A stretch of DNA of 20,822 nt from IMG/VR virus record IMGVR_UViG_3300018416_002250, positions 1-20,822 of that record, one strand, 5' to 3'. The DNA comes from a virus. The translations under genes were made by a program, and so were the position numbers. Positions 3-15,256 of this stretch are shown piece by piece (position 1 is the stretch's first letter; each line of letters begins with the position of its first letter). Under the pieces are notes generated by a model. It was given only the letters and a program-made list of their open reading frames with translations. It ran no database searches and was not told the origin of the DNA.

Positions 3-101
3 GGTGGTACTGGTGGAACGGGCGGAACAGGTCATACAGGAGGAACTGGCGGAACGGGCGGAACAGGTGGTACTGGTGGTACTGGCGGAACAGGTGGTAC
101 T
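3..101 (+). repeat. Gly-Gly-Thr collagen-like triplet repeat (11 units)
   Basis: There are eleven consecutive nine-base units in the frame of the fibre-like gene. Ten encode Gly-Gly-Thr and one (30-38) encodes Gly-His-Thr; a related Gly-Leu-Asn triplet follows at 102-110. Codons vary between units (ggt/gga/ggc and act/aca/acg), so the amino-acid pattern is conserved more tightly than the DNA. That argues for selection on a collagen-like helix rather than recent slippage. The array continues off the left edge, so its full length is unknown. Confidence 0.9.
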
Positions 102-563
102 GGATTAAACGCAGGAGGATCTTTATCTCCTGAGTGGAGTGGTGCTGTATTTTATATACCAGATTCATCAAATGCAAATGGTATATGGACTGTTGGTTAT
201 GATACATCAAACTATTGGACATTTTATAGATGGACATCAAACGATTCTGACCAAAGAGGTGGTATAAGATTAATGATTACTTATCCAGATGGAATTACTG
301 CTATGAGTGGGGTTTATGTAATGGTTAGAACGAGTAGTGCTACATCCACAACAAGTCACTTAGATGTAACAGCAGGCAATCCAGCTTCAATGACTTCAGT
401 ATTAACAAATGTTGCTCAAACATCTTGGGGTATTGAAACAATATCTTCTGGCACTTTAGGTTCAAATACTGGCACTCAAGAAAGAAGTTTAATACAATTT
501 GATTGTTCTGCAGACGATGGAGAAACTGTAGATTTAGGTCCGATTTGGTGGGTATTTAGTTAA
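3..563 (+). CDS. Tail-fibre-like protein, C-terminal part (5' end outside the window)
   Basis: The frame is open from base 3 to the TAA at 561-563, giving 186 visible residues; the true start lies upstream. The first 33 visible residues are a collagen-like array of Gly-X-Thr triplets, after which come about 150 residues rich in Ser, Thr, Trp and Tyr (for example IWTVGYDT and WTFYRW) ending PIWWVFS. This looks like a beta-rich fibre head or tip, and no enzymatic motif is seen. Phage fibres often carry collagen-like stalks before a globular receptor-binding end, and the adjacent tail genes fit that role. An internal ATG at 273 would give a 96-residue product, but the open frame continues upstream through coding-quality sequence, so 273 is unlikely to be the start. 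The next gene follows after 12 bases with a good ribosome site, suggesting one operon. The fibre assignment is inferred from composition and context; no specific family is recognised. Confidence 0.75.
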   Translation, partial: GGTGGTGGTGHTGGTGGTGGTGGTGGTGGTGGTGLNAGGSLSPEWSGAVFYIPDSSNANGIWTVGYDTSNYWTFYRWTSNDSDQRGGIRLMITYPDGITAMSGVYVMVRTSSATSTTSHLDVTAGNPASMTSVLTNVAQTSWGIETISSGTLGSNTGTQERSLIQFDCSADDGETVDLGPIWWVFS

Positions 564-575
564 GGAGAATGTTTT

Positions 576-1154
576 ATGGCTAATTATATATTATGTTATC
601 ATACAGGCTCTGGTGTTATACAGAGAGTAGTAAATGCTGATGTGGTAAATTTTGAAAAATGTGGTTTATCTGATAAAGAAACAAAGATACAAGTTTTAGA
701 TTCTTCTGAAAATGTAGGATATTATTTAGGTAGAAGATATTCTGGCTCAGCTGATGATTTGGCAAACGGAAATGGAACGATGGTTTTACAAGATTCATTT
801 GAATGGTCTATAAATGGATTAGTGTTAAGTTCGAGTATGGATGTTAGTATTCCATCGGATTCTCCTTTTAATTTAGAACTAAAAATTTTAGATGGACAGA
901 CAAATGAAAAATCAAATATATCAGGAGATGGTTCTACAGATTATGTTAGTGTTAAACCAATATGGCATATAGAATCTTTAATAGCACCTGATGATGAAGA
1001 ATCACTAGCTTCATATGATATTCCAAATGCTAATATGGAATACCAACCTTATACAAATGGTGAAGCAACTCAGAGTGTGGATTTAACTTCAGATAGTAAT
1101 AGGTTATATTTATTAAGAACTAGTAATGTAAGTGTTAACTTGATAAAAGATTAA
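576..1154 (+). CDS. Unrecognised structural-type protein downstream of the fibre gene
   Basis: This 192-residue protein starts at an ATG preceded by AAGGAGAA, 12 bases after the fibre-like gene. I do not recognise a family. It is acidic and polar, without a signal peptide, membrane segment or catalytic motif. It opens MANYILCYHTGSG and has alternating hydrophobic and polar stretches with Asp/Ser-rich turns, consistent with a beta-rich virion protein. Position and spacing place it in one transcription unit with the fibre-like gene and the 482-residue protein downstream, which it precedes by 11 bases. Possible roles are a fibre-associated tip, a fibre chaperone or a baseplate-periphery protein; none can be chosen from sequence alone. 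Confidence 0.7.
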   Translation: MANYILCYHTGSGVIQRVVNADVVNFEKCGLSDKETKIQVLDSSENVGYYLGRRYSGSADDLANGNGTMVLQDSFEWSINGLVLSSSMDVSIPSDSPFNLELKILDGQTNEKSNISGDGSTDYVSVKPIWHIESLIAPDDEESLASYDIPNANMEYQPYTNGEATQSVDLTSDSNRLYLLRTSNVSVNLIKD

Positions 1155-1165
1155 GGAGAAGGAAA

Positions 1166-2614
1166 GTGTCCTTTAGAGATCATTCATATTTTCATATCGT
1201 AGGAAGAAGTGGTAATAGCACAGCTGGTTACTATTGGGAACCAGGTGATAGTACAATAACTAGAGTATGGACATCAAGTACTTCAGATGGATACAGAGGT
1301 GATGGAAGTGCTGTTGATAGATCTAGAGGATTAGTATATTATGGCAGTGCAAGCCACTCAGGAGATAGTGTTACTGTATTTAAAACAGCTGATGGAGCAG
1401 TTCAAGCTAGCACAACATCAACAACATTTGATAATCATGCATGCGCTTTTGTACATCCAAGTGGAACGGCTATCTATAAATATCGCAGTACCACTGCATC
1501 TAATGCAACAAATATTCATTACGCAAGATTAACTGATTTAGGTAGCATCAATACAGGAACGGCGACAATAAATGTTGAACATAGTGATATTGGAAAGATA
1601 CTTACTCTTCCCACAACTGGATATGTTATAGATGTTGAGCCGGATATATATGATAGGCCAGACAAAAATCTATTAGTAATGGTGACAAATACAACTTCAA
1701 ATTGGAACTCTGATTCTACTTCTTGTAATCGTTTATGGATTTATCAATATGATATGATAGCTGATGAACAAATTCTTTTAGTTACTTTTGATCCCGATAA
1801 CTACACAGCAGATTCTATAAGAACAAGAGTAAGTGAACTAATGTGTAAAGACAATGGTAATTTTATTATTCAATGTAGAGCAGGTTCAACTGATGGTGGA
1901 CTTTTTATGGAAATACCTAGACACCCTGCTGGTGTTAACAGTGATATCGCTGACCCTACTGCTGTATGGGCTGTTAATAAAAGAACTGTAGATGGTGATG
2001 TAAGGAGACAGTTAGGAAAGCTTGACTATATATCACAAAAATATTTATACTTAGGCTCTGGATCTACAAACGATCCAGAACCTGTAGGTTTGATAAGTAT
2101 GATAGATGGGAGTGTTTTAAGTTTTAGAGAAACAGTAGCAGATGATGGAACTAATGAATTTAGAACACATTGTGGTCAACCTTGTTTATGGGGAAAATGG
2201 TCTGAAGGACCAAATGCTAGCAGTACCTCTTACAACAACATAAGACCATACTCTCAGTTAATATACTTTTCAGGATTTGGAGGAAACCATAATGCTAATC
2301 CAAACCTAGCATTTTTCAACGGACCTCCTGAAGATGAATTTAACAATACAGACGCTACTGTTGTCAAACTAAACTCATCAAGCACACTTTGTGGTGCTAC
2401 TATGGATGCTAATGGAATGGTAAACGCTATGGCTGGAGTAGGTTCATTTCAAAACAAAGATGATATGACAACATTAATGCACTCTTATGGTGAGAGTGGT
2501 GCGATACTAGCAGGTAAAGCAGATACTATGTACGATGAAGATAATAATCAAATGGTTCATATGAGGCATGGTAAGCGTTGGGTAGGTGGTACACTTCTAT
2601 TTGCTGGACATTAA
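1166..2614 (+). CDS. Unrecognised large beta-rich, propeller-like virion surface protein
   Basis: This 482-residue protein starts at GTG, with AAGGAGAAGG at 1153-1162 deciding the start. The sequence is rich in Gly, Ser, Thr, Asp, Trp and Tyr, with recurring stretches such as RGLVYYGSAS, NLLVMVTN, KYLYLGSGS and SQLIYFSGFGG at fairly regular spacing. These resemble successive blades of a beta-propeller, but I cannot assign a family. There is no signal peptide or membrane helix. It is the last gene before the glycan cassette and lies 11 bases after the previous gene, so it probably belongs to the fibre operon. A receptor-binding or fibre-tip role is a reasonable inference. It could also be an acceptor of the cassette's modification, given its many Ser and Thr residues, but no defined acceptor motif is visible. 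Confidence 0.7.
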   Translation: MSFRDHSYFHIVGRSGNSTAGYYWEPGDSTITRVWTSSTSDGYRGDGSAVDRSRGLVYYGSASHSGDSVTVFKTADGAVQASTTSTTFDNHACAFVHPSGTAIYKYRSTTASNATNIHYARLTDLGSINTGTATINVEHSDIGKILTLPTTGYVIDVEPDIYDRPDKNLLVMVTNTTSNWNSDSTSCNRLWIYQYDMIADEQILLVTFDPDNYTADSIRTRVSELMCKDNGNFIIQCRAGSTDGGLFMEIPRHPAGVNSDIADPTAVWAVNKRTVDGDVRRQLGKLDYISQKYLYLGSGSTNDPEPVGLISMIDGSVLSFRETVADDGTNEFRTHCGQPCLWGKWSEGPNASSTSYNNIRPYSQLIYFSGFGGNHNANPNLAFFNGPPEDEFNNTDATVVKLNSSSTLCGATMDANGMVNAMAGVGSFQNKDDMTTLMHSYGESGAILAGKADTMYDEDNNQMVHMRHGKRWVGGTLLFAGH

Positions 2615-2674: not shown

Positions 2675-5600
2675 TTGAAAGAGGTTATAGACGATTTAGT
2701 TATAGATTATAATTTTGACGCGGGTCCTTTTGTAGGATTGACATCTGAAAAAAAATATCAATGTAGAGTAGAATTTTGGAAACCTAATAGTAAAAAACAT
2801 TGGGGTGATTTAGTATACTCTGCTAATATAGATAGTCTTGGTAAGACTGCTTTTGTTCCTACAAAATGGTATATTGAATGGACAATAAGAGTTTATAAAG
2901 AGGATAATTTAGTATTTACACATAAATTAGATTTGGAAGGTAAAAAAGTTTTTGTAAGATTGTCTAGTAGTATGTTAGGTGATAATTTTTGTTGGATTCC
3001 TTATGTAGAAGAGTTTAGAAAAAAACATAATTGTGAGATATTCTGTGGAAGTACTTTTCCTGAAATATTTGAACACACATATGATTTTGAATTTTGGAAA
3101 GAGGGTTCTGAATGGCCTGACGAAGAGTTTTACGCTACATATGAAGTTGGTGTATTTGGTTACAAGAATGATGAACCACATTATGAGTTTGTCAATACTC
3201 ATAATAAAAATAGTTTATTAGAAACATCAATGGCTAAAACAGCTAGTGATATTTTAGGTTTAGAACATAAAGAGATAAGAGCGAATATAGATTTATCAAA
3301 ATATGAACCAAAAGAAAGAGTAAAGGGAAAGTATGTTTGTATAGCTCCATATGGTAGTGCTCAGTTAAAGATGTGGAATAATGAAGATGGTTGGCAAAAA
3401 ATAGTTGATTATTTTTTGAATATTGGGTATAAAGTTTTATATTTATCTAGAGAACCTAATGGTTATATGAATAACAAAGTTCCGAAGGGCGTAATTGATA
3501 AATCGGGATGGGATATACCAATAGAAGAAAGAATAGCAGATTTGAAATATTCAGAACTATTTTTAGGAATAAGTTCTGGTTTAAGTTGGGTTGCTTGGTC
3601 TGTAGGAGTTCCTGTAATTTTAATACACGGACATAATTATTCTTGGTATAATCCTATTGATAATGTTAAACATATTAATTTAGAAAATGACAAAAGTGTT
3701 TGTACAGGTTGTTGGCATAGAGATGGTTTTGCTCCAGGTGATTGGAACTTTTGTCCAGAACATAAAGGTACAGATAGGCAATTTGAGTGTACTAAAAAAA
3801 TAACTGCTGAAATGGTTATAGAGGGAATAGAGTCTATGTTAGAAAAAAACAAAGTTGAAGTAAAATCAGAAAATAGATGGATTTTGGGCGTTAATATAGG
3901 TCATGATGCCGGTGCAACATTAGTTAAAGATGGTAGAGTATTTGTTTCTATTAATTTAGAAAGAATAAGTAGGATAAAACACGATGAGGGTAATGACGAT
4001 TTTCCGTGGGCTGCTATGGATTATTGTTTAGATTACGCCAATATAACTAAAAAAGATTTAGAAAGAGTTGTTTGGAATGGTATAGGATTACAGCCAGAGT
4101 TGATGATGAACCCTGATGGTGATTGGGCTAACAGATTAAGGAGTAATGGTTATGATTTACCAAAAGACAGATTGAATTATTGTACTCATCACTTAGCACA
4201 TGCATATTCAGCTCACTATTCAAGCGGATTTGAAGAATCAATTAATATTGTCGTTGATGCTGGTGGTGAATCAAACTATAAGTATGTATTGGAAAACTAT
4301 ACTAATAATCCTATAGCACATATGAAAAAGTTTCCATTGGAAAAGTGTGTTGAAGCCACTAGTATTTATGAAGTAAAGAAAGGAAAATTTACAAAGATAT
4401 ATTCTGCTTACAAACCATTTCCAATGTCTAGAGAATTATGGCCGTTATTAGGACAATCTCTCGGTGAGTTTTATGCTATAGGTTGTAACTACATTGGTAT
4501 GGATGGCTTGTATGATGCAGGAAAACTTATGGGATTAGCTCCATATGGTAGAAGAGAAGAAGCTCTCAAAGAATATGAACCAATATCAAATGTTTACATT
4601 GATGACGATCCTAAAGCAGGAGATTACTTTATAAGGGTGCATCACAATGATGTTGATAAACAAATGATACCTAAATCTGAAGATGGTTACTATGATAATC
4701 CAATTTGGTATATAAATTCAGAAAGACCTAAATTTCTAGAATCTAATATAAGCCATATGGATTTTCAAACAAAAGCTGATTGGGCTTGGTGGGTACAACA
4801 TAGTTTTGAAAAAATGATATTGTTTTTAGCTAAAAAAGCTTCTATGATTTCTGATGTAAAATATTTGACTGGTTCAGGTGGATGTTTTTTAAATTCTGTT
4901 GCTAATCAAAAGATAGTTGATTTGAATCTATTTAAAGACCATTTTTATGTTCCAGCTTCTGATGATGGTGGTATATCTATTGGAACTGCTTTCTATGGAT
5001 ATTATAATTTTCATCCCGATAAAGGTAAGGTAAATCTTAGTAACAGAGAAATAGAAGTTTTTATGGGTAAGGAATATTCTGAAGAAGAAATATTAGCTGA
5101 CTTAAAGTTATTTGACAATATTGAATATGAAAAGATAGAAGATGAAGTTGAGCTTTCTCAAAAAGTTGCAAGGTTTATTCACGATGGAAAAGTAGTTGGT
5201 TGGTTTCAAGGTGGTAGTGAAATGGGTCCTCGAGCATTAGGACATCGTAGTATTTTAGGAGACCCAACTCATCCCGATATGCAAGATATAATAAATGATA
5301 GAGTAAAACATAGAGAATGGTATAGACCATTTGCTCCTGCTTGTACTGTTGAAGACGCTCATAGATTTTTTGAACATACAACAGAAAGCCCATATATGTT
5401 GTTGATAGCGCAAGTAAAAGAAGAGTACAAAGAAAAATTGCCATCAATAACGCATGTGGATGGTAGTGCTAGATTACAGACTGTGAGAAGAGAAACCAAT
5501 ACTAGATATTATGATGTTATCAGAGAGTTTGGTAGATTATCTGAAATACCAGTTATACTAAATACATCTTTTAACGAAGCAGGAGAACCTATAGTTGAAA

Positions 5601-5725
5601 GACCATTTGATGCTGTAAAGTGTAGTCTTAAAAATAATATTGATTATTTAGTTATAGAAAACTTTTTAATCAAAAAAACTCCTGATGTTCTTAGAAAACC
5701 AAATCATTTACCTAATATTGTATGA
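2675..5725 (+). CDS. TibC-like (BAHT) heptosyltransferase fused to NodU/TobZ-type O-carbamoyltransferase
   Basis: This 1016-residue two-enzyme fusion starts at TTG, chosen because AAGGA at 2664-2668 lies six bases upstream and the next in-frame ATG would remove a conserved domain. Residues 1-395 match the bacterial autotransporter heptosyltransferase family: a beta-rich N-domain with KWYIEW (about 70-75), LGDNFCWIPYVEEFRKKHNC (about 98-117), a GT-B donor region with K232 and W234, LGISSG at 297-302, and four cysteines (C343, C346, C360, C372; CTGCW...DWNFC...FEC) matching the metal-binding finger of TibC. Residues 402-1016 form a complete carbamoyltransferase: NIGHDAG at 407-413, the H505/H509 and D528 metal-ligand pattern, GKLMGLAPYG at 616-625, GSGGCF at 733-738, and a C-terminal domain with GPRALGHRS at 851-859 and NTSFN at 963-967. 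Inferred role: transfer of a heptose-like sugar to protein Ser/Thr plus carbamoylation of a sugar hydroxyl. The sugar and acceptor are not shown by sequence. Confidence 0.88.
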   Translation: MKEVIDDLVIDYNFDAGPFVGLTSEKKYQCRVEFWKPNSKKHWGDLVYSANIDSLGKTAFVPTKWYIEWTIRVYKEDNLVFTHKLDLEGKKVFVRLSSSMLGDNFCWIPYVEEFRKKHNCEIFCGSTFPEIFEHTYDFEFWKEGSEWPDEEFYATYEVGVFGYKNDEPHYEFVNTHNKNSLLETSMAKTASDILGLEHKEIRANIDLSKYEPKERVKGKYVCIAPYGSAQLKMWNNEDGWQKIVDYFLNIGYKVLYLSREPNGYMNNKVPKGVIDKSGWDIPIEERIADLKYSELFLGISSGLSWVAWSVGVPVILIHGHNYSWYNPIDNVKHINLENDKSVCTGCWHRDGFAPGDWNFCPEHKGTDRQFECTKKITAEMVIEGIESMLEKNKVEVKSENRWILGVNIGHDAGATLVKDGRVFVSINLERISRIKHDEGNDDFPWAAMDYCLDYANITKKDLERVVWNGIGLQPELMMNPDGDWANRLRSNGYDLPKDRLNYCTHHLAHAYSAHYSSGFEESINIVVDAGGESNYKYVLENYTNNPIAHMKKFPLEKCVEATSIYEVKKGKFTKIYSAYKPFPMSRELWPLLGQSLGEFYAIGCNYIGMDGLYDAGKLMGLAPYGRREEALKEYEPISNVYIDDDPKAGDYFIRVHHNDVDKQMIPKSEDGYYDNPIWYINSERPKFLESNISHMDFQTKADWAWWVQHSFEKMILFLAKKASMISDVKYLTGSGGCFLNSVANQKIVDLNLFKDHFYVPASDDGGISIGTAFYGYYNFHPDKGKVNLSNREIEVFMGKEYSEEEILADLKLFDNIEYEKIEDEVELSQKVARFIHDGKVVGWFQGGSEMGPRALGHRSILGDPTHPDMQDIINDRVKHREWYRPFAPACTVEDAHRFFEHTTESPYMLLIAQVKEEYKEKLPSITHVDGSARLQTVRRETNTRYYDVIREFGRLSEIPVILNTSFNEAGEPIVERPFDAVKCSLKNNIDYLVIENFLIKKTPDVLRKPNHLPNIV

Positions 5726-7662
5726 ACTATATAGCAAAACCACCTAAAAACTTTTTAGAGTTATACGACTATATTGATGAAACAAAATCCTTTTGGAAAG
5801 TTGATGATTTCAAAAAAGAAATAATTGATTTCGAACATCCAAATGTTCATATACCAGATGCTTGGGAATTTTTTATTGGACATCCCGAAACATCAGTTCC
5901 TTACAGACCTGATAGAGGCGTTTCTTTTGGTGATTGTATTCCATATACTAGACTTCCAGAGCTTATAAAAATGTACTATGGTTGGAGAGGTGCTAAAGTT
6001 TTTATACCTGAATGGTTTATTGATGTATTTCAACACAATCCTTATGTTGATGGTACTCACGAATTTGATTATAAATGGGGTTCAATGGGAACTTTTGGAA
6101 CTACTATTCAAAGATGTTCTAATGCTTGGGGATTAACTTCTCCTTTCTATACACCTAAATTATATGCTTCTGCTCATATTAAAAAGAGAGAAAATACTAT
6201 ACTTTTCACTTTAAATAGTAAAACAGGTGGAAGAGTAACACAAAATGAAACATTAGAAAAAATAGTACAACATCTAACAAAAAAATATAGGGTTGTGCAA
6301 TTAGCTTTGTCTGATGACTATTTAATAAAATCTGCTAACCAACACGTTCTAAATGTTTCGAGAGATAAGTTGATAGATTTTGTAGCAGAGTTTCCTATAT
6401 ACATAGGTGCTCAAAATAGTGTGTATCATATAGCAAAAGGTTTAGGACTAAAGATGGTTGGTATCCTACCCAAAAAACAAATAATTGGTGAAAAGTTAGC
6501 CGGTTTACACTCTGAAAAAGTCGTTTTACCCTTACTTACTGTAACCAATTCATCAGAGGTTACACCTTACGATGAAAAATATTGGAGTAGAGCCAAAAAA
6601 TTCAATCCATTTTTTCCTAAAGAATATGAAGACGGAGATGTAAGTTCAGATAAAGCTTACAACGATACTATAGCACATTTAGGATGGTTGTATCCTGACA
6701 CTCCACATTTAACATTAGATGAAGATGGTTCTCCGAGATGTCCTACTTTATCAGAAAAAACCATAGATATGGCATTAGAAGATAAAATATATCCTTTTAA
6801 TGATAGTAGATTATGGGATTATTATGAACACTCAGAGTTGTGGACTTCAGTACATCCTCAGAAGATGACTTTTAAAAGTAATGAAGTAGAAGACAACAAA
6901 TTTGTATTTCAACACATTCCTAGAACTGGTGGTAATCTTTTTAGAAATGTTCTTTGGTCTATATATGGTATTGATTTGAGCCACAAAAAAATAATTGACA
7001 AAGTTCTTTACGATGAGAATTGTTTTATAAAAGATAATGAAACTATTATCTATGAAGATTATGGAGACCATCCACAATGGAATAATTATGAAGTAAAGCC
7101 AACAGTAAACACTTCAGATTACAAATGCGTAATAGGTCACTTTACTATACAAAAACATTTAGACTTAAAAAGTAGAGGATACAAATTTGTAAATTGGTTT
7201 AGAAATCCAATAGATAGAGTTATATCTCAATATTTTTATGATAAGATGTCAGCTGAAAATGTTAGTTTGGAAGAGATAAACGATCCTGTTCGTAAAAAAC
7301 TTATAGAAGAGGATATGAGTTTGTATGAGTATTGTGAAATGAGTTACAATAGAAATATTTATTCAGATTATGTAGGTGATAAAATTTACGAATTAGATTT
7401 TATAGGAATTACAGAAAATTACAAAGATAGTCTTAAAAAGTTTGAGAAGATGTTCAACATAGAAATACCGATTGGGCCTAGAAATGTTTCTTTTTTTGAT
7501 GACTCATCAGCTGATGATGAATATATAATAAAGATAAAGAATCAAAGAAAACATTTATATTCAACGGATGATATAGATAGAAACATAATAGAAGAATTAA
7601 ATAAAGAAGATATGAAAATATACAATCAAGCAGTAAGAATAAATTCGGAATATAAATTATGA
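5722..7662 (+). CDS. GT9-like glycosyltransferase domain fused to a PAPS-type sulfotransferase
   Basis: This 646-residue protein has an ATG that overlaps the previous stop in ATGA, implying translational coupling; no clear ribosome site precedes it. Residues about 60-330 look like a GT-B, heptosyltransferase (GT9)-like domain: a VSFGDCIPY loop (67-75) resembling the Gly-Asp acceptor-side loop, and FPIYIGAQNSVYHIAKGLG (224-242) resembling the family's donor-site motif. The K-x-W element seen in the upstream BAHT domain is not evident, so activity is uncertain. Residues about 390-646 form a sulfotransferase: HIPRTGGN (398-405) fits the 5'-phosphosulfate loop and FRNPIDRVISQYF (493-505) the 3'-phosphate motif for PAPS binding. 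Predicted role: addition of a sugar and O-sulfation of the glycan made with the neighbouring enzymes. The sulfotransferase call is stronger than the GT9 call. No membrane segment is present, so it is probably cytoplasmic. Confidence 0.8.
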   Translation: MNYIAKPPKNFLELYDYIDETKSFWKVDDFKKEIIDFEHPNVHIPDAWEFFIGHPETSVPYRPDRGVSFGDCIPYTRLPELIKMYYGWRGAKVFIPEWFIDVFQHNPYVDGTHEFDYKWGSMGTFGTTIQRCSNAWGLTSPFYTPKLYASAHIKKRENTILFTLNSKTGGRVTQNETLEKIVQHLTKKYRVVQLALSDDYLIKSANQHVLNVSRDKLIDFVAEFPIYIGAQNSVYHIAKGLGLKMVGILPKKQIIGEKLAGLHSEKVVLPLLTVTNSSEVTPYDEKYWSRAKKFNPFFPKEYEDGDVSSDKAYNDTIAHLGWLYPDTPHLTLDEDGSPRCPTLSEKTIDMALEDKIYPFNDSRLWDYYEHSELWTSVHPQKMTFKSNEVEDNKFVFQHIPRTGGNLFRNVLWSIYGIDLSHKKIIDKVLYDENCFIKDNETIIYEDYGDHPQWNNYEVKPTVNTSDYKCVIGHFTIQKHLDLKSRGYKFVNWFRNPIDRVISQYFYDKMSAENVSLEEINDPVRKKLIEEDMSLYEYCEMSYNRNIYSDYVGDKIYELDFIGITENYKDSLKKFEKMFNIEIPIGPRNVSFFDDSSADDEYIIKIKNQRKHLYSTDDIDRNIIEELNKEDMKIYNQAVRINSEYKL

Positions 7663-9254
7663 GTAAGGTATTTGGTATAATAGGTCACGCTCACGATTCT
7701 ACAGTAGCTTATATGGAAGATGGTGAGATAAAATGTGTTATTGAAGAAGAGAGAATCAGAAAGACTAAATCTGCTTACCTAACAGGTGTTTATCCCGTAT
7801 TCTCTTTAGACTATATAGAAAATTTAGGATATAAATTAGAAGACGCTGATTACATTTGTATACCCGAAGTAGCAGAGCCAGACTTTGATAGATACAAATC
7901 AGATGAAATAAGAAGAAAGATTGTTACATATCCACATCACTTATGTCACGCAGCTGGTGCTTACTATACATCAGGCTTTGAAGAAAAAACATTGGTTGTA
8001 ACACACGATGGTAGTGGTTCTACTGTTGTTGGTAGAGTTTACTTAGGAGAAGATAACAAATTAGAATTAGTACACAAACAAATGAGAGGTACAGGATCTA
8101 TTGGTGAGTTTTACGGAGTAGCAACAAAATATTTTGCTCCAAAAGGAGCTAATTGGATTCCGTTGAAAGATGAAGGTAAGTTGATGGGTATGGCTGGACA
8201 CGGAAATTATGATATAAATATTTACAATATGTTGAAACAACTTTTGTATTACGAAGGTGATTTGAATTTTGGTCCGATGGGAAATTCTAAAAAAGTACAA
8301 TTCTTTTTTGAAGAAATGACTAATAGTATTCTTAATTGGTCTGAAGATTTTAGTATTAGAGCTGATTGGGCTTTTAATTTACAGAAATTAGTTGAAGATT
8401 GTTTCTTACAGTATTTAGATGACTTACACAAACTATATCCAGAATATAAAAAGATAGCTGTAGCTGGTGGTATATTTGCTAATGTAAAAATGAATCAAAA
8501 GATAAATGAATTAGATTGGGTTGATGAATTGTATGTTTATCCGCCAATGGGAGATAGTGGATTAGCATTAGGCGCAGCTTTGAAGAAGTCAGCTGAGTTG
8601 AATGAATGGAAAACTAAAAGGTTTGAAAATGTATTTTTAGGTAATGAATATTCAGAAGAAGAAATTTCAGAAGAATTAAAGAATTATAATTTCAAAAAAG
8701 AAAAATTCAACCCTAAAAAAGTAGCTAAGCTATTAGATGATGGTAATATCATAGGATGTTTTCGTGGTAAGATAGAACACGGGCCTAGAGCATTGGGTGC
8801 TAGAAGTATTCTAGTTAGAGCTACTGATAAAGAGATGCACGAAAAACTAAATGAGAGATTGAAGAGACACGAGATAATGCCATTTGCTCCAATAATCTTA
8901 GGCGATGAGATAGATAATATATGTCTGAATACTAAATCTAAAATGACAGCAGAGTTTATGACATTGTGTTACACAATAAAAGAAGAATGGGCTGATAAAA
9001 TACCAGCAGTTGTTCATAGAGTAGACAACACTTTAAGACCACAATTAGTTTACAAAGAAAGAAACAAATTTTTCTATGATATTCTAAATGAGTATTTTAA
9101 GATTTCTAAGATACCAGCTTTACTAAACACATCTTTCAATGGACACGGTGAACCAATAATATTTCACTTAGACCAACCATTGAATCATCTTAGAGATGGT
9201 ACTGTAGACTATTTAGTCTTAGGCGATAATCTATATTGGAGTGAAAATGAGTAA
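7659..9254 (+). CDS. Stand-alone NodU/CmcH-family O-carbamoyltransferase
   Basis: This 531-residue protein is close to the usual length for single-domain members of this family, and starts in an ATGA overlap with the previous gene. N-terminal domain: GIIGHAHDS (6-14), HHLCH (93-97) and D117 as probable metal ligands, GKLMGMA (173-179), a glycine loop VAGGIFAN (268-275) and MGDSG (297-301). C-terminal domain: EHGPRALGARS (373-383) and NTSFNGHGEP (490-499). Family members transfer the carbamoyl group of carbamoyl phosphate through a carbamoyl-adenylate intermediate to a hydroxyl, usually on a sugar or antibiotic. It clearly differs from the carbamoyltransferase half of the 1016-residue fusion, so two positions or two sugars may be carbamoylated. 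All signature motifs look intact. The substrate cannot be read from the sequence. Confidence 0.9.
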   Translation: MSKVFGIIGHAHDSTVAYMEDGEIKCVIEEERIRKTKSAYLTGVYPVFSLDYIENLGYKLEDADYICIPEVAEPDFDRYKSDEIRRKIVTYPHHLCHAAGAYYTSGFEEKTLVVTHDGSGSTVVGRVYLGEDNKLELVHKQMRGTGSIGEFYGVATKYFAPKGANWIPLKDEGKLMGMAGHGNYDINIYNMLKQLLYYEGDLNFGPMGNSKKVQFFFEEMTNSILNWSEDFSIRADWAFNLQKLVEDCFLQYLDDLHKLYPEYKKIAVAGGIFANVKMNQKINELDWVDELYVYPPMGDSGLALGAALKKSAELNEWKTKRFENVFLGNEYSEEEISEELKNYNFKKEKFNPKKVAKLLDDGNIIGCFRGKIEHGPRALGARSILVRATDKEMHEKLNERLKRHEIMPFAPIILGDEIDNICLNTKSKMTAEFMTLCYTIKEEWADKIPAVVHRVDNTLRPQLVYKERNKFFYDILNEYFKISKIPALLNTSFNGHGEPIIFHLDQPLNHLRDGTVDYLVLGDNLYWSENE

Positions 9255-11661
9255 ACATATTAGAATATTTAAAGACCCAAAGATTCGTGTACAACACACA
9301 TCAGATAAAGCTAAAACTTTGTACTTCGATTTCTTTATAAGAAGAGAGAACGGAAAACTTCAGTATATAGAGTCTGGTTCAGTAGTTGGTAAAGGTGGTT
9401 GGTATAGTCTGTGGATTCAATGGCACGCTGAGTGGGTAGTTAAAGCTTACTATTTAGAAAATGGAATTTTTAAATTTTTAGAAGAAGTAGAGTATGATGT
9501 AAGAGGAAAAAATGTACAGATGGTTTTCTGTACAGATGATTGGAATGAAGCCGTTGAATTTTTGAGATGGTCTATACACTTCAAAAAAATAACTGGTTGT
9601 AAGTTATTCATAGCCTCATCTGAATTTAATGAAGGTCATTTCAAAGGGGAGGGTTTACAAATAGATTTAGGTGCTATCACCACTTTTACAGAAAAATACA
9701 ATTCTGGTCCTATAGATCCTACAGGAGTATCAGACAATACATATGTAGAACCATCAAATGAACAAAATGAACCAATACAAAATTTGTATGCTAGATATGA
9801 CTTAGGAACTTTTCCAATAAAAACTTCACCAAGATTTGGAAACTTAGTAGACAATTGGAGAATTGAAAATAAAGAAGTAGAGTCTCACTATAACTCTATA
9901 AGCTACAAACAGCACACTAAACAACCTATTGGTTTGATAGACAATTATGATATAATTTACGATAGTTGGAAGAATCCTGTGATTCACTCAAAAAATCAAT
10001 TAGAAGAATTTAATGGAATAGTTGATAAAGATGTGGAGATAGAAGAACTTACTTCTGAAGAAATAGTAAAACACATATTAGGATTCAGAACAAAGTATTG
10101 GAAGTATGGAATTTTGAAATTGCATAAAAGTGGTTACAAAGAACCAAATGGAGTATTTGTAAAGCACGAATCTTTTAGTGGTGGATTTCATATTTGGGGA
10201 AAGGGTAGTAACAAAACTCGTGTTGCTATACAAATTCTCAGTTACAATAAGCCTGAGTATTTAAAAAGAACTTTGGATTCATTACTAAAAGTAATGGATT
10301 TAGACGACAAAATATGTGTGGTTGAACAATCAGATGATAAAGATTCTAAACAAAAAGCTGTAGACATATGTAAAGGTTACAACGATATAACATTATTAGA
10401 TTTAGATAAAAATTTAGGACAAAGGGGTGCTACTAATAAAGTATGGGAAAGCGGTTTCTTTGACAATTGTGAATTTATTATGTTCTCAGACCAAGACAAC
10501 GAATATCACGAACCACTAACAATATTATGTGATAAGTTAGAAGAAGAGGGTGTAAAAATATCCACTTTTTATAATTCTCCAGAACACGATATAATAAAAA
10601 AAGATGGAAGTTGGATTTACAGAAATACTGCGAGAGCTGGTAATATGATGTTAACTAAAGAACATATGTTTGAAATGCTTCCTATAGATGAAAATCTATA
10701 TTCAGAAACCAAAACGGATAAAGATTATTGTGCTTGGTTTGCTGGTTTAGATTGGTGGGTACAATGGTGGCACGAAGCTAGTGGTGGTAAATTAGAATTG
10801 GATGGTTTTGTAGCTTGTTATCCAGGTGGTTGTACTCATTTTGGAATTGAATCTACTTGGCAAGGAACATACGATGATGAAATTCCTACAAATGAATCTA
10901 TTCTCATAAGAGATAAAAGCCTACAACAGATTATAAAAAAGTATCCAAACAGACATTTGTATAATCACGGAAAGAATAGTTGGTATGAGAAAGAAAAATT
11001 AGATTTGAGTAATGTTACATTGGTTGTAATAGATTGTATTGATTATGAAAGAGCTTTAAAAGCGATAGACATATCAACCACATACGCAGACTTTGCAGAT
11101 GTAAAATTTTTTACATCTATGAATAAAGATAATGATGACATAGTAAAGATACCACATTGTCAATCTAATTTTGATGTTATACATTTTATGTGGAAAAAAA
11201 TGAACTCATACATTCAAACAGATTACATATTACATATAGAGTTTGATGGGTTTATTCTCAATCCAAAAGCTTGGAAAGATGAGTTTCTAAAGTATGATTA
11301 TATTGGAGCTCCGTGGTGGTATGAAGAAAACAATGTAGGTAATGCTGGATTTAGTTTGATAAGTAAGAAGATGTTAGACTTTATACAAAAAGATGAAGTT
11401 ATAGATTTATATCCATCAGATGATGATGCTATATGTAGAATAAATAGAAAATACTTAGAAGATAATGGAATAAAGTTTGCACCTGAAGAATTAGCTGCTG
11501 ATTTTTCTTTTGAAGCTAATGAAAAAAGAGGTGATGAATGGGATGGACAATTTGGTTTTCACAGTCCATCTTACATAGATGAAAGACATCCAAATAAGTA
11601 TCGTGGTGGCATAACAAATGTTGATAAATGGGAAGATAAAGACAATTTTAGTTGGCCATAA
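9247..11661 (+). CDS. Three-domain protein: BAHT-like N-domain, GT2 glycosyltransferase, DUF5672 glycosyltransferase
   Basis: Its 804 residues are counted from the ATG at 9247. A GTG two codons earlier is possible, but GGAG at 9238-9241 is well spaced for the ATG, which overlaps the previous stop. Residues 1 to about 190 resemble the N-domain of the upstream BAHT protein: an EWVVKAYYLENG strand, VRGKNVQMVF, an FKKITGCKLFIAS strand and LYARYDLGTF, the counterpart of FYATYEVGVF there. Residues about 322-560 form a GT-A/GT2 domain: RVAIQILSYNKP (325-336) and a DxD-like SDQDN (414-418). Residues about 589-775 match DUF5672: HIEFDGF (663-669), YIGAPWW (685-691), VGNAGFSL (697-704), DDDAICR (725-731) and KFAPEE. 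Predicted role: two successive sugar additions, with the N-domain perhaps binding the acceptor or a partner. No membrane segment is seen. It ends the cassette. Confidence 0.82.
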   Translation: MSKHIRIFKDPKIRVQHTSDKAKTLYFDFFIRRENGKLQYIESGSVVGKGGWYSLWIQWHAEWVVKAYYLENGIFKFLEEVEYDVRGKNVQMVFCTDDWNEAVEFLRWSIHFKKITGCKLFIASSEFNEGHFKGEGLQIDLGAITTFTEKYNSGPIDPTGVSDNTYVEPSNEQNEPIQNLYARYDLGTFPIKTSPRFGNLVDNWRIENKEVESHYNSISYKQHTKQPIGLIDNYDIIYDSWKNPVIHSKNQLEEFNGIVDKDVEIEELTSEEIVKHILGFRTKYWKYGILKLHKSGYKEPNGVFVKHESFSGGFHIWGKGSNKTRVAIQILSYNKPEYLKRTLDSLLKVMDLDDKICVVEQSDDKDSKQKAVDICKGYNDITLLDLDKNLGQRGATNKVWESGFFDNCEFIMFSDQDNEYHEPLTILCDKLEEEGVKISTFYNSPEHDIIKKDGSWIYRNTARAGNMMLTKEHMFEMLPIDENLYSETKTDKDYCAWFAGLDWWVQWWHEASGGKLELDGFVACYPGGCTHFGIESTWQGTYDDEIPTNESILIRDKSLQQIIKKYPNRHLYNHGKNSWYEKEKLDLSNVTLVVIDCIDYERALKAIDISTTYADFADVKFFTSMNKDNDDIVKIPHCQSNFDVIHFMWKKMNSYIQTDYILHIEFDGFILNPKAWKDEFLKYDYIGAPWWYEENNVGNAGFSLISKKMLDFIQKDEVIDLYPSDDDAICRINRKYLEDNGIKFAPEELAADFSFEANEKRGDEWDGQFGFHSPSYIDERHPNKYRGGITNVDKWEDKDNFSWP

Positions 11662-11718: not shown

Positions 11719-12024
11719 ATGGAAGAAATAAAATTCACAGATGAGGAACTGAAAAATCTAAAGGATCTAAGCGATACTTATAGAGGTATTCAGGAAGTTA
11801 TGGGTAAATTGTCAGTTCAGAAGTTACTGAACAGTCAACAAGCTGATGCTTTAGAACAATCAGAATTAGATTTAAACACACAATATACAGAGAATCAGAA
11901 AAAAGAAAGAGAATTGGTAGATACTCTTTCTAAAAAATATGGACCTGGTAGTTTAGATGCTAGTACTGGTGTTTTTACACCATCTCCTCAACAGAATGTT
12001 GAAGAAAACTCCGAAGAAAAGTAA
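11719..12024 (+). CDS. Small coiled-coil protein of unknown function, upstream of the tail sheath
   Basis: This 101-residue protein starts at an ATG preceded by AAGGAG (11706-11711). It is almost entirely helical in character: charged and Gln-rich heptad-like segments over residues 5-70 (for example LKNLKDLSDTYRGIQEVMGK), then a KKYGPGSLDASTGVFTP turn and an acidic tail ending in EENSEEK. No membrane segment or catalytic motif is present. I do not recognise a named family. Its place between the cassette and the sheath, with its own promoter-like motif, suggests a virion assembly or minor structural role. That is inference from context only. Confidence 0.75.
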   Translation: MEEIKFTDEELKNLKDLSDTYRGIQEVMGKLSVQKLLNSQQADALEQSELDLNTQYTENQKKERELVDTLSKKYGPGSLDASTGVFTPSPQQNVEENSEEK

Positions 12025-12118: not shown

Positions 12119-14605
12119 ATGGCAGAGAGAATAGTCAGTCCTGGTGTATTTACCCGAGAAAAAGATTTATCTTTTCTTCCTCAAGGAATTTCTGAAATAG
12201 GAGCAGCAATTGTCGGACCAACTAAACAAGGTCCAGCTTTTGTACCTACAATAGTAAGAAGTTTTGAGGAATATCAGCAAATTTTTGGTGGGTATGATAT
12301 AAATTACTATACACCTTTTACTGTTAGAGAATATTTAAGATCCGCTGGTACTGTAACCATAGTTAGAGTTGGTTACCTTGGCGGATATACAACAACAGGT
12401 TTTAACTTATTAGCAAGTGGTTCAGCTGGAAAGCTTGTCGTAGCATCATTTTTACCATCAGTTAAGAACTCAAATGGTTTGGGTTCTATAAGTGGTTCTG
12501 TAAATCACGATGAAGCAAAAGCTACTAACTTTAACCTTACTATAAATGGTGCGAACGCAACCGCTAGTTTGTCTAATTTGACAATAGAATCGCAGGGTTC
12601 TGCTACAGGAAATAATGACGCAGTATCTGCAAATTATATTGGTAGACAAATACCTGATTCAGCACAAGCTCAATCTATAGGTAGTACAGAAGCACCAGCT
12701 TATATGTACAAATTCTTCGAAAGTGCTGTTAGTGCTTCGGTAGTATCTGGAACTACAATTCTTGCTAACGCTTCGATGTCAATTGAGAGTGTTTCTTATG
12801 ATTTCTCTACTGGTACAGAAACAGTAGATACTTCAGATGGAAACTACATATCAACTATAACTGGTAACTCAGATGGAGCTTCGTCTAGAACACCTTTTAT
12901 ACAATCACAAAAAATAGGCGGTAGTGGAACAAACCTCTTCAGAGTTTACGCAAGAGCTCAAGGTAACGATACAAATCAATTTTATGTTGTGATAAGGGAT
13001 GTGAAAAGACCACAAAGTTCTAACTCAAGTCCAGTATTTGCACAATTCGGACTTTCAGTTTGGAAAACTGGTGGAAGTGCTCCAATAGAAACATATAGTG
13101 GTTTGAATTTAGATCCAGATTCATCAAATTATATTGTAAAAGTAATTGGTGATATGTTTCAGACTGTGAATAACAATGGTGAAATAACAGAGTACGGTGA
13201 TTATCCTAATCTTTCACAATATATTAGAATCGGTGATTATAAAGAGGATTTATTTAAGAGTAATCCTAACTTACAACCTATGGGTCACGCTGCTGTATTA
13301 GATCCTGTACCAACTTCGGCTGGTATAGTTCCATCTGCATCTTTTGGTTTTTCACAAACCATCGATGGTGGTAAGACAAATTCGAGTACATACAAAGGTA
13401 ATCTGCCATATGGTGTTAAATTACATCCTGACTACCCAGCGAATGAACTTCTCGGTAATTATGCTTACCTATCTCCGATTCCAAAGAGTGAAACGGCAGG
13501 ACAGAATGTGGCATTTGCTTTGGAAGATATGAACGGATATGGAGATACTAGTTCATTTGAATTTAGTAACTTTACTAACTTCACAGTTTCTTCATCTTTC
13601 CTAACGATATCTTCTTCTGTAGAACAGTTAAAGTACACTGTTCCAATGCAACACGGATTTGATGGAATCAACCCAGCTGCTTCAAAAGCTACTGGTACTT
13701 CTATTTCATCAACTAACACTAGTGGATTCGATTGTTCAACAGTAGTGTCTAGTGGTTCAGTAGCTTACAAAAGAGCCATTAACGCAATATCAAATCCAGA
13801 TGATTATGATATTAATATGTTGGTAACTCCAGGTATTATACATAAACATCATCCGATAGTTAGTAACCACGCTATTGAAAAGATGGAAGCTAGAGCTGAT
13901 GCTTTTTATGTAATGGATGGTTCTGATATCGATGATAATGTTGCTACAGCAGTTTCTAATGTTGAAGCGTTAGATACTAACTATGTAGCTACATACTATC
14001 CTTGGGTTAAGATTGAGAATCCTATTGGCGGAGGTTTGATTTTTGTACCACCATCAGTAGTAATACCAGGTGTGATTGCTTTCACAGATAGTGTAGCTCA
14101 CGAATGGTTTGCTCCTGCTGGATTGAACAGAGGTGGATTAGCAAGTGCTAGAATGGTTAAGAAAAAGCTAACTCATACAGATAGAGATACTTTGTATGAA
14201 GGTAGAGTCAATCCGATTGCTTCTTTTCCTGGTCAAGGAATTGTGGTATTTGGACAGAAGACACTACAGGCTAAACCATCCGCTTTGGACAGAATCAATG
14301 TAAGAAGACTACTTATCAGATTGAAGAAATTTATTGCTTCTTCAAGCAGATTCTTAGTGTTCGAACAAAACGATTCATCCACAAGAAGCAGATTCCTAAA
14401 CATAGTGAATCCGTTCTTAGAATCAGTTCAGGCTAATAGTGGTTTGAGTGCATTCAAAGTCGTAATGGATGATAGTAATAATACACCTGATGTCATTGAC
14501 AGAAATCAGTTGATTGGACAGATATTTATCCAACCTACCAGAACTGCAGAGTTTATTGTATTAGACTTTACAGTATTACCAACTGGAGCTGCATTTCCCG
14601 AATAA
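12119..14605 (+). CDS. gp18: Contractile tail sheath protein (T4 gp18 family)
   Basis: This 828-residue protein starts at an ATG after AAGGAGAACAAAT. It polymerises around the tail tube and contracts on infection. The N-terminus is typical of sheath proteins (RIVSPGVFTREKDLSFLPQG, then IGAAIVGPTKQGPAF and FGGYD). The C-terminal 200 residues are the conserved inner domain: NVRRLLIRLKKFI from 727, STRSRFLNIVNPFLESVQ from about 754, then NNTPDVIDRNQLIGQIFIQPTRTAEFIVLDF. T4 gp18 is about 660 residues. The extra length lies in the Ser/Thr/Asn-rich middle (about 100-450), probably an enlarged outer-surface domain. The tube gene follows after a terminator, as expected for a high-output structural pair. 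This is among the surest calls in the window. Confidence 0.95.
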   Translation: MAERIVSPGVFTREKDLSFLPQGISEIGAAIVGPTKQGPAFVPTIVRSFEEYQQIFGGYDINYYTPFTVREYLRSAGTVTIVRVGYLGGYTTTGFNLLASGSAGKLVVASFLPSVKNSNGLGSISGSVNHDEAKATNFNLTINGANATASLSNLTIESQGSATGNNDAVSANYIGRQIPDSAQAQSIGSTEAPAYMYKFFESAVSASVVSGTTILANASMSIESVSYDFSTGTETVDTSDGNYISTITGNSDGASSRTPFIQSQKIGGSGTNLFRVYARAQGNDTNQFYVVIRDVKRPQSSNSSPVFAQFGLSVWKTGGSAPIETYSGLNLDPDSSNYIVKVIGDMFQTVNNNGEITEYGDYPNLSQYIRIGDYKEDLFKSNPNLQPMGHAAVLDPVPTSAGIVPSASFGFSQTIDGGKTNSSTYKGNLPYGVKLHPDYPANELLGNYAYLSPIPKSETAGQNVAFALEDMNGYGDTSSFEFSNFTNFTVSSSFLTISSSVEQLKYTVPMQHGFDGINPAASKATGTSISSTNTSGFDCSTVVSSGSVAYKRAINAISNPDDYDINMLVTPGIIHKHHPIVSNHAIEKMEARADAFYVMDGSDIDDNVATAVSNVEALDTNYVATYYPWVKIENPIGGGLIFVPPSVVIPGVIAFTDSVAHEWFAPAGLNRGGLASARMVKKKLTHTDRDTLYEGRVNPIASFPGQGIVVFGQKTLQAKPSALDRINVRRLLIRLKKFIASSSRFLVFEQNDSSTRSRFLNIVNPFLESVQANSGLSAFKVVMDDSNNTPDVIDRNQLIGQIFIQPTRTAEFIVLDFTVLPTGAAFPE

Positions 14606-14624: not shown

Positions 14625-14655
14625 AAGGGGAGTAATTATACTCCCCTTTTTTTTT
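14625..14655 (+). terminator. Strong intrinsic terminator after the tail sheath
   Basis: A perfect 10-base-pair stem, AAGGGGAGTA (14625-14634) with TACTCCCCTT (14639-14648), has a four-base loop and a T-run reaching 14655. It starts 20 bases after the sheath stop. It should end or attenuate the sheath transcript and set sheath output apart from the tube and downstream genes. Confidence 0.92.
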
Positions 14656-14767: not shown

Positions 14768-15256
14768 ATGGCAGACTTAATCGATCCTTCAGAAATAATG
14801 TTCACTCCGTTTGAACCTAAAACAAAAAATAGGTTCATTATGTACATTGAAGGCGTTCCAGCTTATTTAATAAAAACTGCAAACCGCCCTACCATAACAT
14901 TTGAGGAAATAGAATTAGACCACATAAATGTTAAAAGGTATGTAAAAGGAAAAGGGGCTTGGGAAACTTTAGATATAACTCTTTACGATCCTATAGTACC
15001 ATCTGGTGCTCAGGCAGTTATGGAATGGGTAAGACTACATAAAGAGTCTGTAACTGGTAGAGATGGTTACTCCGATTTTTATAAAAAAGATGTTACTTTT
15101 AATGTATTAGGACCTGTTGGAGATAAAGTTGAAGAGTGGACACTAAAGGGAGCTATGATTCAATCTGCTAATTTTGGAGATTTGGATTGGTCAGTTAGTG
15201 AACCAGCAGAAATTACATTAACATTAAGATACGATTACGCTATCTTACAATTCTAA
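14768..15256 (+). CDS. gp19: Tail tube protein (T4 gp19 family)
   Basis: This 162-residue protein starts at an ATG after GGGAGAA and is close in length to T4 gp19. It forms the inner tube through which DNA passes. The family pattern is visible: an N-terminal segment ending in FTPFEPKTKNRFIMYIEG, a central ITFEEIELDHINVKRYVKGK strand pair, WETLDITLYDPIVPSGAQ, and the C-terminal YDYAILQF strand after EITLTLRY. It is the first gene of the post-terminator unit and follows the sheath, as in T4. A short gene begins nine bases after its stop. Confidence 0.93.
   Translation: MADLIDPSEIMFTPFEPKTKNRFIMYIEGVPAYLIKTANRPTITFEEIELDHINVKRYVKGKGAWETLDITLYDPIVPSGAQAVMEWVRLHKESVTGRDGYSDFYKKDVTFNVLGPVGDKVEEWTLKGAMIQSANFGDLDWSVSEPAEITLTLRYDYAILQF

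Follow-up and report, generated by a model that had tools for sequence, protein, structure and literature searches.

The closest described relatives of the enzyme that leads the locus analyzed here are the protein O-heptosyltransferases TibC and AAH (TIGR04414; PDB 4RAP and 4RB4), a family whose members described to date all act on bacterial adhesins. The lead protein, P0001, shares with them a score above the family cut-off, the N-terminal barrel region, the catalytic Asp, the sugar-binding Lys, Arg, and Trp, and a Cys4 iron finger, but it is phage-borne, is fused to a carbamoyltransferase, and is encoded beside a collagen-like fiber rather than a beta-helical autotransporter. A second comparison is provided by glycosylated collagen-like proteins, BclA of Bacillus, BclA3 of C. 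difficile, and Riftia cuticle collagen (PMC8968730, PMC11766948), which share collagen-like Gly-X-Thr stalks with Thr at the Y position, but which depend on other glycosyltransferases and sugars, whereas the present locus has a TibC-type enzyme, a predicted carbamate and sulfate, and a phage fiber as candidate acceptor. The O-carbamoyltransferases NodU and TobZ and the cyanophage PHROG 1601 "Nol-like carbamoyltransferase" belong to the same family as those found here and contain both of its domains, though elsewhere they are stand-alone (for example beside uvsW in S-SSM7), whereas in the present phage a heptosyltransferase is joined to one of the two copies within a putative glycosylation cassette. 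Finally, Microcystis phage Mel-JY01 encodes a GT4-FkbM-TibC protein (PP395634.1) that matches TIGR04414 with 317 bits and whose gene likewise lies downstream of a collagen-like Gly-X-Ser/Thr fiber, with one structural gene between, but neither a carbamoyl- nor a sulfotransferase is present in the stretch examined and the genome position is different. The combination of enzymes described below was unreported in the papers searched.

Layout and enzyme domains of the cassette

The window, the whole 20,822-nucleotide stretch that was analyzed (IMG/VR record IMGVR_UViG_3300018416_002250, positions 1 to 20,822), comes from a phage of marine type that carries the cassette (positions 2675-11661) directly behind a long collagen-like tail fiber gene (Table 1). 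It opens inside that gene and holds the last repeats only, the remainder lying outside. The preliminary description had reported four tightly packed genes between fiber and tail genes, and the ORF calls agree, with overlaps of 4, 4, and 14 nt, fiber- or adhesin-like ORFs upstream, and the gp18 sheath and gp19 tube downstream. Homologs of the 101-aa protein at the downstream edge precede gp18 in 50 of 80 tail-tube loci. None of the PHROGs families corresponded to P0002, to P0004, or to the TibC domain.

Table 1. Features of the window in and around the cassette
Feature	Position	Strand	Assignment
Fiber gene, 3' end	3..563	+	Gly-Gly-Thr repeat end, then C-terminal head; proposed glycan acceptor; translation GGTGGTGGTGHTGGTGG...
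192-aa protein	576..1154	+	Likely fiber-associated; no family match
482-aa protein	1166..2614	+	Likely fiber or adhesin; beta-rich repeats by eye; no family match
P0001, 1016 aa, TTG start	2675..5725	+	TibC/AAH-type protein O-heptosyltransferase (aa 10-387) fused to NodU/TobZ-type O-carbamoyltransferase (aa 403-1001), by sequence
P0002, 646 aa	5722..7662	+	Predicted C-terminal sulfotransferase (aa 390-635); N-terminal ~385 aa without family match
P0003, 531 aa	7659..9254	+	Stand-alone NodU/TobZ-type O-carbamoyltransferase
P0004, 806 aa	9241..11661	+	Degenerate TibC N-half (about aa 12-196), GT2 (about 332-439, SDQDN motif), DUF5672 (650-763)
101-aa conserved protein	11719..12024	+	Directly before sheath gene; downstream edge of cassette
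gp18-type contractile tail sheath	12119..14605	+	Phage_sheath_1 8e-12, phrog_23 2e-67
gp19-type tail tube	14768..15256	+	phrog_4542 1e-29

The heptosyltransferase part of P0001 scores 247.3 bits against TIGR04414 (hepto_Aah_TibC), above the NCBI curated equivalog cut-off of 200, its relatives score 273-283 bits, and the protein matches the TibC crystal structures 4rap/4rb4 at E 1e-45. In the alignment it keeps the catalytic D103 (the TibC base Asp110) and the sugar-binding K232, R286, and W305 (TibC Lys230, Arg286, and Trp305), with a conservative change of the sugar-binding TibC Thr226 to S228, and the iron finger is intact, with its four cysteines at C343, C346, C360, and C372. The position of TibC Pro-300, which bears on stereoselectivity, is Ser in P0001 as it is in AAH, an enzyme that accepts both ADP-heptoses. 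Judged by its sequence, the domain belongs to the protein-glycosylating BAHT family; because the window's family matches include no autotransporter partner, the partner being a collagen-like phage fiber, we class P0001 as a TIGR04414 member by sequence and not as an autotransporter heptosyltransferase. A weak Glyco_transf_9 match in P0001 falls on the TibC domain itself. The remainder of P0001 has both Carbam_trans_N and Carbam_trans_C (the latter at 2e-70) and matches TobZ at 2e-64, and P0003 likewise has both (2.5e-37 and 8e-49) and matches the solved carbamoyltransferases 7xb6 (8e-46) and TobZ (3e-42), the Carbam_trans matches in the two proteins spanning E 1e-24 to 1e-70.

The C-terminal half of P0002 is, by its motifs and family score, a PAPS-dependent sulfotransferase: Sulfotransfer_2 matches with 25.9 bits against a cut-off of 22 and in 4/4 homologs, and the 5'-PSB P-loop HIPRTGGN and the 3'-phosphate (3'-PB) motif RNPIDR-IS-Y are invariant across the four in alignment. 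All but one of the seven domains named in the preliminary description were recovered by family searches and alignments, the exception being its "GT9-like" call for the N-terminal half of P0002, for which Pfam gave no match up to E=10 across the four homologs, hhalign against the TibC profile reached only 1.3%, and the AlphaFold model had an unusably low pLDDT of 32 (32-33 for P0002 and P0004, from shallow alignments). In P0004, Glycos_transf_2 scores 43.9 bits (cut-off 23.3) and DUF5672 scores 49.8 bits (cut-off 24.4), and ahead of both lies a region whose homology to TibC covers the N-terminal half of that enzyme (hhalign 93%, E 2.5e-7). The profile of this region also matches TibC proteins at 1e-7 to 1e-10; the region is catalytically degenerate and in alignment does not have the catalytic Asp. 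This TibC-like half had been overlooked in the earlier domain list.

Conservation of the cassette and its fiber neighbors

The same gene order recurs between fiber genes and tail sheath, among T4-like structural modules, in at least two divergent contigs (G003 and G005; 60-75% amino acid identity), in which the gp19-type tail tube is 98% identical, and in three further loci (L005, L007, and L010) pieces of the cassette are connected to this sheath module as well. The cassette ORFs are not chance ORFs but genes under purifying selection, since all four are full-length in independent contigs and dN between window and relatives (about 0.17-0.32) is well below dS (0.87-1.25). The relatives additionally encode FkbM and 2OG-Fe oxygenase domains and an extra 429-aa carbamoyltransferase paralog that does not have Carbam_trans_C. 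No cassette domain was found in the other 79 tail-tube loci; of all 80, 41 extend more than 1 kb upstream. When IMG/VR was scanned with whole proteins, P0001 and P0002 returned no relatives, and P0004 returned seven loci, including near-identical fragments and divergent relatives.

Phages commonly have collagen-like fibers. The fiber upstream of the cassette is a collagen-like Gly-X-Thr repeat of 2176 and 2704 aa in G003 and G005, with 615-685 Thr and Pro nearly absent, and of its 578-595 Gly-X-Y triplets 398-420 have Thr at Y; the runs extend over at most 24-25 triplets and are interrupted by phase shifts, and the repeat might instead form a polyglycine-II bundle. We know of no mechanism that stabilizes or decorates such proline-poor Gly-X-Thr stalks. 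New here are this giant upstream fiber and the linkage of TibC-type genes to collagen-like genes: phage and bacterial relatives of the lead enzyme repeatedly lie beside Gly-X-Ser/Thr repeat proteins. In a division of phage clusters chosen after the data were seen, fused-type TibC clusters had a collagen-like gene nearby in 24/32 cases compared with 4/24 tail-tube controls, whereas for stand-alone 385-aa TibC-type genes such a neighbor was rare (5/35). All clusters together gave a modest enrichment (29/66 versus 4/24, p=0.014), and a position permutation of the TibC-to-collagen gene distance was not significant (p=0.28). Near bacterial TibC-type loci a collagen-like gene was found in 4/5 cases versus 0/28 GT9 controls (p=1.2e-4), and the pairing also occurs in Mel-JY01 and in one 735-kb phage.

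The converse, that Gly-X-Thr fibers always come with TibC, was rejected, with TIGR04414 in 1 of 19 such contigs, many being fragments. One of the 19 (G012) is of the same virus type and is cut inside the fiber. GT2 was found in 5/17 Gly-X-Thr contigs versus 0/20, a comparison confounded by the unequal lengths of the contigs. As for the sugar donor, the partial contigs G003 and G005 yielded no heptose-synthesis gene, and heptose-kinase-like genes adjoin TibC-type genes in L157 and, by eye, in L283. TIGR02199 (heptose adenylyltransferase) was commoner in TibC contigs (11/41 versus 1/34, p=0.004), but we consider this enrichment weak because all matches fall below the cut-off, the model also picks up nucleotidyltransferases that are unrelated, and the contigs with TibC are the longer ones.

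A proposed glycosylation pathway and its alternatives

On balance we favor, with reasonable though far from full confidence, the interpretation that the cassette attaches an O-glycan to the phage's own collagen-like fiber: Ser/Thr residues would be heptosylated, and the glycan would then be carbamoylated and sulfated. The data directly support which genes are present, the families to which they belong, the conservation of catalytic residues, the linkage to fiber genes, and purifying selection, and we infer the acceptor, sugar order, products, and function. The TibC domain of P0001 would move heptose from ADP-heptose, probably host-made, onto Ser/Thr hydroxyls of the Gly-X-Thr stalk, after which the sugar would be lengthened or branched by the GT2 and DUF5672 domains of P0004 and perhaps also by the N-terminal half of P0002, while the degenerate TibC half of P0004 may dock onto rings of TibC domains. 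The two O-carbamoyltransferases and the predicted PAPS-dependent sulfotransferase would then cap the glycan, and in the relatives an FkbM-type O-methyltransferase may extend the capping. If the analogy with BclA and Riftia cuticle collagen applies, glycosylation could stabilize a triple helix that has almost no proline, and the surface of the fiber could become anionic and hydrated.

If this is right, a bacterial adhesin-glycosylating family would be linked to phage fibers, a heptose-carbamate-sulfate glycan would be predicted on the virion, the occurrence of TibC-type genes beside fiber genes in many phage contigs would be accounted for, and an annotation could be suggested for numerous genes of phages and bacteria. 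A broader proposal, which we put forward only tentatively, is that TIGR04414 includes a widespread phage and bacterial branch glycosylating collagen-like Gly-X-Ser/Thr repeats, and that in the present phage a carbamoylated and sulfated heptose makes an anionic, proteoglycan-like fiber in which sugars replace hydroxyproline as triple-helix stabilizer. Glycosylation of the fiber can be tested directly in Mel-JY01, which carries a related gene pair and whose host is named.

Counting against the fiber stalk as acceptor are the Gly-X-Thr fibers without TIGR04414, the rarity of collagen-like genes near stand-alone TibC genes, which instead adjoin large fibers of no collagen-like character, and the beta-helical passengers that are the known TibC acceptors (PMC4358343). 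The acceptor might be another surface protein of the virion, such as the 192- or 482-aa head proteins, which separate the repeat fiber from the cassette in the window, or another fiber; we consider this unlikely, though it is the alternative to be taken most seriously, and the Gly-X-Thr fiber is shared by the window, G003, and G005, whereas the genes separating it from the cassette differ among the three, and the bacterial relatives are likewise paired with Gly-X-Ser/Thr repeats.

The preliminary description had proposed a dedicated system acting on the phage's own fiber or tail proteins or else on host surface polysaccharide, perhaps for receptor tuning or evasion. A dedicated glycosylation cassette physically tied to fiber and tail genes is supported by the linkage to a fiber gene retained in relatives, by the protein-glycosylating family of the lead enzyme, and by the giant fiber as likely acceptor, and the polysaccharide alternative is less well supported. 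Carbamoyl-, sulfo-, and glycosyltransferases are all known from polysaccharide loci, and the carbamoyltransferase of HTVC008M lies among a methyltransferase and a UDP-glucose/GDP-mannose dehydrogenase, distant from tail genes. Remodeling of the surface polysaccharide or LPS of the infected host, perhaps to block superinfection or change the receptor, nevertheless seems to us somewhat less probable still than another virion acceptor: the cassette lies inside the structural module, from fiber to sheath, in three lineages, the window has nothing annotated as polysaccharide-specific (no polymerase, flippase, acyltransferase, or membrane-embedded enzyme, with membrane segments judged without formal prediction), and the lead domain scores above the cut-off of a protein O-heptosyltransferase family.

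We regard action of the carbamoyltransferases on DNA, converting 5-hydroxymethylcytosine to 5-carbamoyloxymethylcytosine, as very improbable. The Pfam families are shared, and a phage-borne 5hmC carbamoyltransferase was proven in the MetaGPA study, in which DNA-modifying members were tied to thymidylate-synthase-family hydroxymethylases and members in unmodified contigs were flanked by glycosyltransferases and the like (PMC8670742). However, PF00303 is absent from G003 and G005 (partial) and from the complete Mel-JY01 record, and one carbamoyltransferase copy is fused to the protein heptosyltransferase. Phages do carry morons, and the site differs between lineages, but a chance set of cargo genes that do not work toward a common product is the least credible reading and is already disfavored by the conservation data, namely the overlapping genes, the order kept at 60-75% identity, and a dN far below dS.

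Domain content of the cassette

The window spans one whole IMG/VR virus record of 20,822 bases, and ORF calling places in it the four overlapping genes of the preliminary description (overlaps of 4, 4 and 14 bases), the first with a TTG start preceded by a ribosome-binding-like AAGGA. Family profiles matched the heptosyltransferase, two carbamoyltransferases, sulfotransferase, GT2 and DUF5672 domains proposed there; the GT9-like fold suggested for the first 385 residues of P0002 found no support from profile comparison or structure prediction, nor from Pfam, which gave no match at E=10.

Coordinates of the features discussed, in the window and in loci from database searches
Locus	Coordinates	Feature
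Window, P0001	2675-5725 (+)	TIGR04414 (247 bits, aa 10-387), then complete NodU-type carbamoyltransferase
Window, P0002	5722-7662 (+)	C-terminal sulfotransferase, above Pfam cut-off
Window, P0003	7659-9254 (+)	Second carbamoyltransferase
Window, P0004	9241-11661 (+)	GT2 and DUF5672, both above cut-off
Window	14625-14648	Perfect 10-bp hairpin, then T run, 3' of sheath gene
Window, gp19	14768-15256	Tail tube
L006; L008	5128-6414; 5143-6429	429-aa carbamoyltransferase paralogue
L020; L006	16259-18489; 572-1132	Two 2OG-Fe(II) oxygenases and methyltransferase of G003
L091	897-7095	Different cassette at tail-tube locus
L283	11086-12205	Putative heptose genes behind TibC-type gene
L326	9830-11900	TIGR04414 gene and repeat protein

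TIGR04414 (hepto_Aah_TibC) is an NCBI equivalog model with a cut-off of 200 bits, and P0001 has further matches in the crystal structures of TibC, 4RAP/4RB4 (E ~1e-45), and, for its carbamoyltransferase part, in the carbamoyltransferase TobZ (2e-64). In TibC, Asp110 is the catalytic base, Thr226/Lys230/Arg286/Trp305 bind the sugar and Cys339/342/358/370 form the iron finger (PMC4358343); HMMER alignment maps these to D103, to S228, K232, R286 and W305, and to C343/346/360/372 in P0001. The Pro300 that confers specificity for ADP-D,D-heptose on TibC is Ser300 in P0001, as at the equivalent position of AAH, which accepts both heptose isomers (PMC4358343), suggesting that P0001 may do so too. P0004 opens with a homologue of TibC's N-terminal half (hhalign 93%, E 2.5e-7), and its profile also matches TibC proteins with E down to 1e-10. 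With neither the LGD catalytic motif nor the iron finger present, this part of P0004 probably serves for docking or assembly. We assume that the host supplies the ADP-heptose donor, because no heptose-synthesis gene was found in the relatives G003 and G005, both partial contigs. Elsewhere, the surroundings of TibC in L157 include a heptose-kinase-like gene (TIGR02198, 111 bits, below cut-off), and in the phage contig L283 nucleotidyltransferase-/adenylyltransferase- and heptose-kinase-like genes directly follow the TibC-type gene, as judged by eye.

Relatives of the cassette

An IMG/VR search with P0004 returned seven loci, three of them near-identical or short pieces. The search for viral contigs of the same domain order, proposed earlier, yielded G003 (57 kb) and G005 (101 kb), which keep the gene order at 60-75% amino acid identity and, as claimed for the window, have fibre genes on one side and the gp8x-gp18-gp19 tail module on the other; partial cassettes in L005, L007 and L010 are attached to the same module. 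The P0001 homologue in G003 and G005 carries an FkbM methyltransferase between its two domains, and the carbamoyltransferase paralogue found 3' of the P0001 homologue lacks the C-terminal domain and is perhaps an inactive partner. Estimates of dN/dS are ~0.12-0.28 for all four genes. Cassette domains occurred in 1 of 80 IMG/VR tail-tube loci (41 extending >1 kb upstream of the marker gene), that one being G005 itself, and none of the remaining TibC loci examined had carbamoyl- or sulfotransferase domains of the cassette type; the exact combination is therefore a lineage-specific module.

Judged by tail tube and terminase, the nearest named phages are Microcystis phage Mel-JY01 (70% and 55%) and the Flavobacterium phages 'immuto' (54% each), and the virus would be marine judging by the company of its relatives. 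Compared among the window, G003 and G005, gp19 is 98-100% identical in amino acids despite diverged synonymous sites, and is thus under extreme purifying selection; other genes of the window share 60-79% with their counterparts in the relatives. The hairpin and T run are likely a bidirectional terminator. In another tail-tube locus, L091, the cassette site is taken by a different gene set next to a collagen-like fibre; it includes a 2OG oxygenase, a nucleotide-sugar epimerase/dehydratase and GT2 enzymes, but no TibC.

The Gly-X-Thr fibre as candidate acceptor

The long fibre gene 5' of the cassette encodes 2176 residues in G003 and 2704 in G005, with 42-50% Gly, 25-28% Thr and only 6-11 Pro, mostly as Gly-X-Thr where X is Gly, Ala, Gln, His or Glu, and a C-terminus that by eye resembles a chaperone-type tail-fibre domain. 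The window opens within the final stretch of a repeat of this kind, its first ORF starting GGTGGTGGTGHTGGTGG... Among other such proteins, BclA is glycosylated, and the cuticle collagen of the vent worm is stabilised by glycosylated Thr (PMC11766948, PMC8968730, PMC3368898). This fibre of the phage is the likely acceptor of the cassette glycan, and the cassette, whose enzyme families are each already known, would belong with protein O-glycosylation. In G003, the oxygenases and methyltransferase lie between fibre and cassette, and the former possibly hydroxylate the fibre. As the repeat is interrupted, with runs of at most 24-25 triplets, a polyglycine-II arrangement is a possible fold. Another virion protein is a possible acceptor; remodelling of host LPS is less likely because the cassette sits within a structural module and its lead enzyme is from a protein-acceptor family. 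DNA carbamoylation, described for a phage-type enzyme (PMC8670742), is a further rival reading, for which the companion hydroxymethylase was not found in the contigs examined.

Pairing of TibC-type and collagen-like genes

Searching IMG/VR with a seven-member TibC alignment gave at least 579 matching stretches; the 80 best of them, with earlier loci, formed 67 clusters at 90% identity. A collagen-like ORF (at least 10 Gly-X-Y triplets) lay within ~10 kb in 29 of these, compared with 4/24 control tail-tube loci of at least 10 kb (Fisher p = 0.014). The pairing was found in 24/32 clusters with TibC fused to other domains (p = 1.6e-5 against controls) and in 5/35 with stand-alone TibC (~385 aa), a post hoc split; a permutation of TibC-collagen distance was not significant (p=0.28). 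Mel-JY01 encodes a GT4-FkbM-TibC protein (TIGR04414, 317 bits) with a collagen-like fibre of 202 triplets 5' of it, one structural gene intervening, and a 735-kb uncultured phage is arranged similarly.

Among bacterial TIGR04414 loci above cut-off, 4/5 had a small (GTS)n/(GSSGTS)n-type repeat protein within ~1.5 kb, against 0/28 similarly sized loci of GT9 paralogues (p=1.2e-4), in a sample that is small and partly selected, since 4/5 came from a phage-type query and L348 is probably of the same lineage as L330. The open-access papers searched contained no report of the heptosyltransferase-carbamoyltransferase fusion, of the cassette, or of collagen-like Gly-X-Ser/Thr proteins recurring beside TibC-type enzymes, a recurrence that is testable and possibly a principle broader than one phage cassette. 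The repeat proteins adjoining the bacterial genes in L326, L329, L330 and L332 are secreted or lipoprotein-like.
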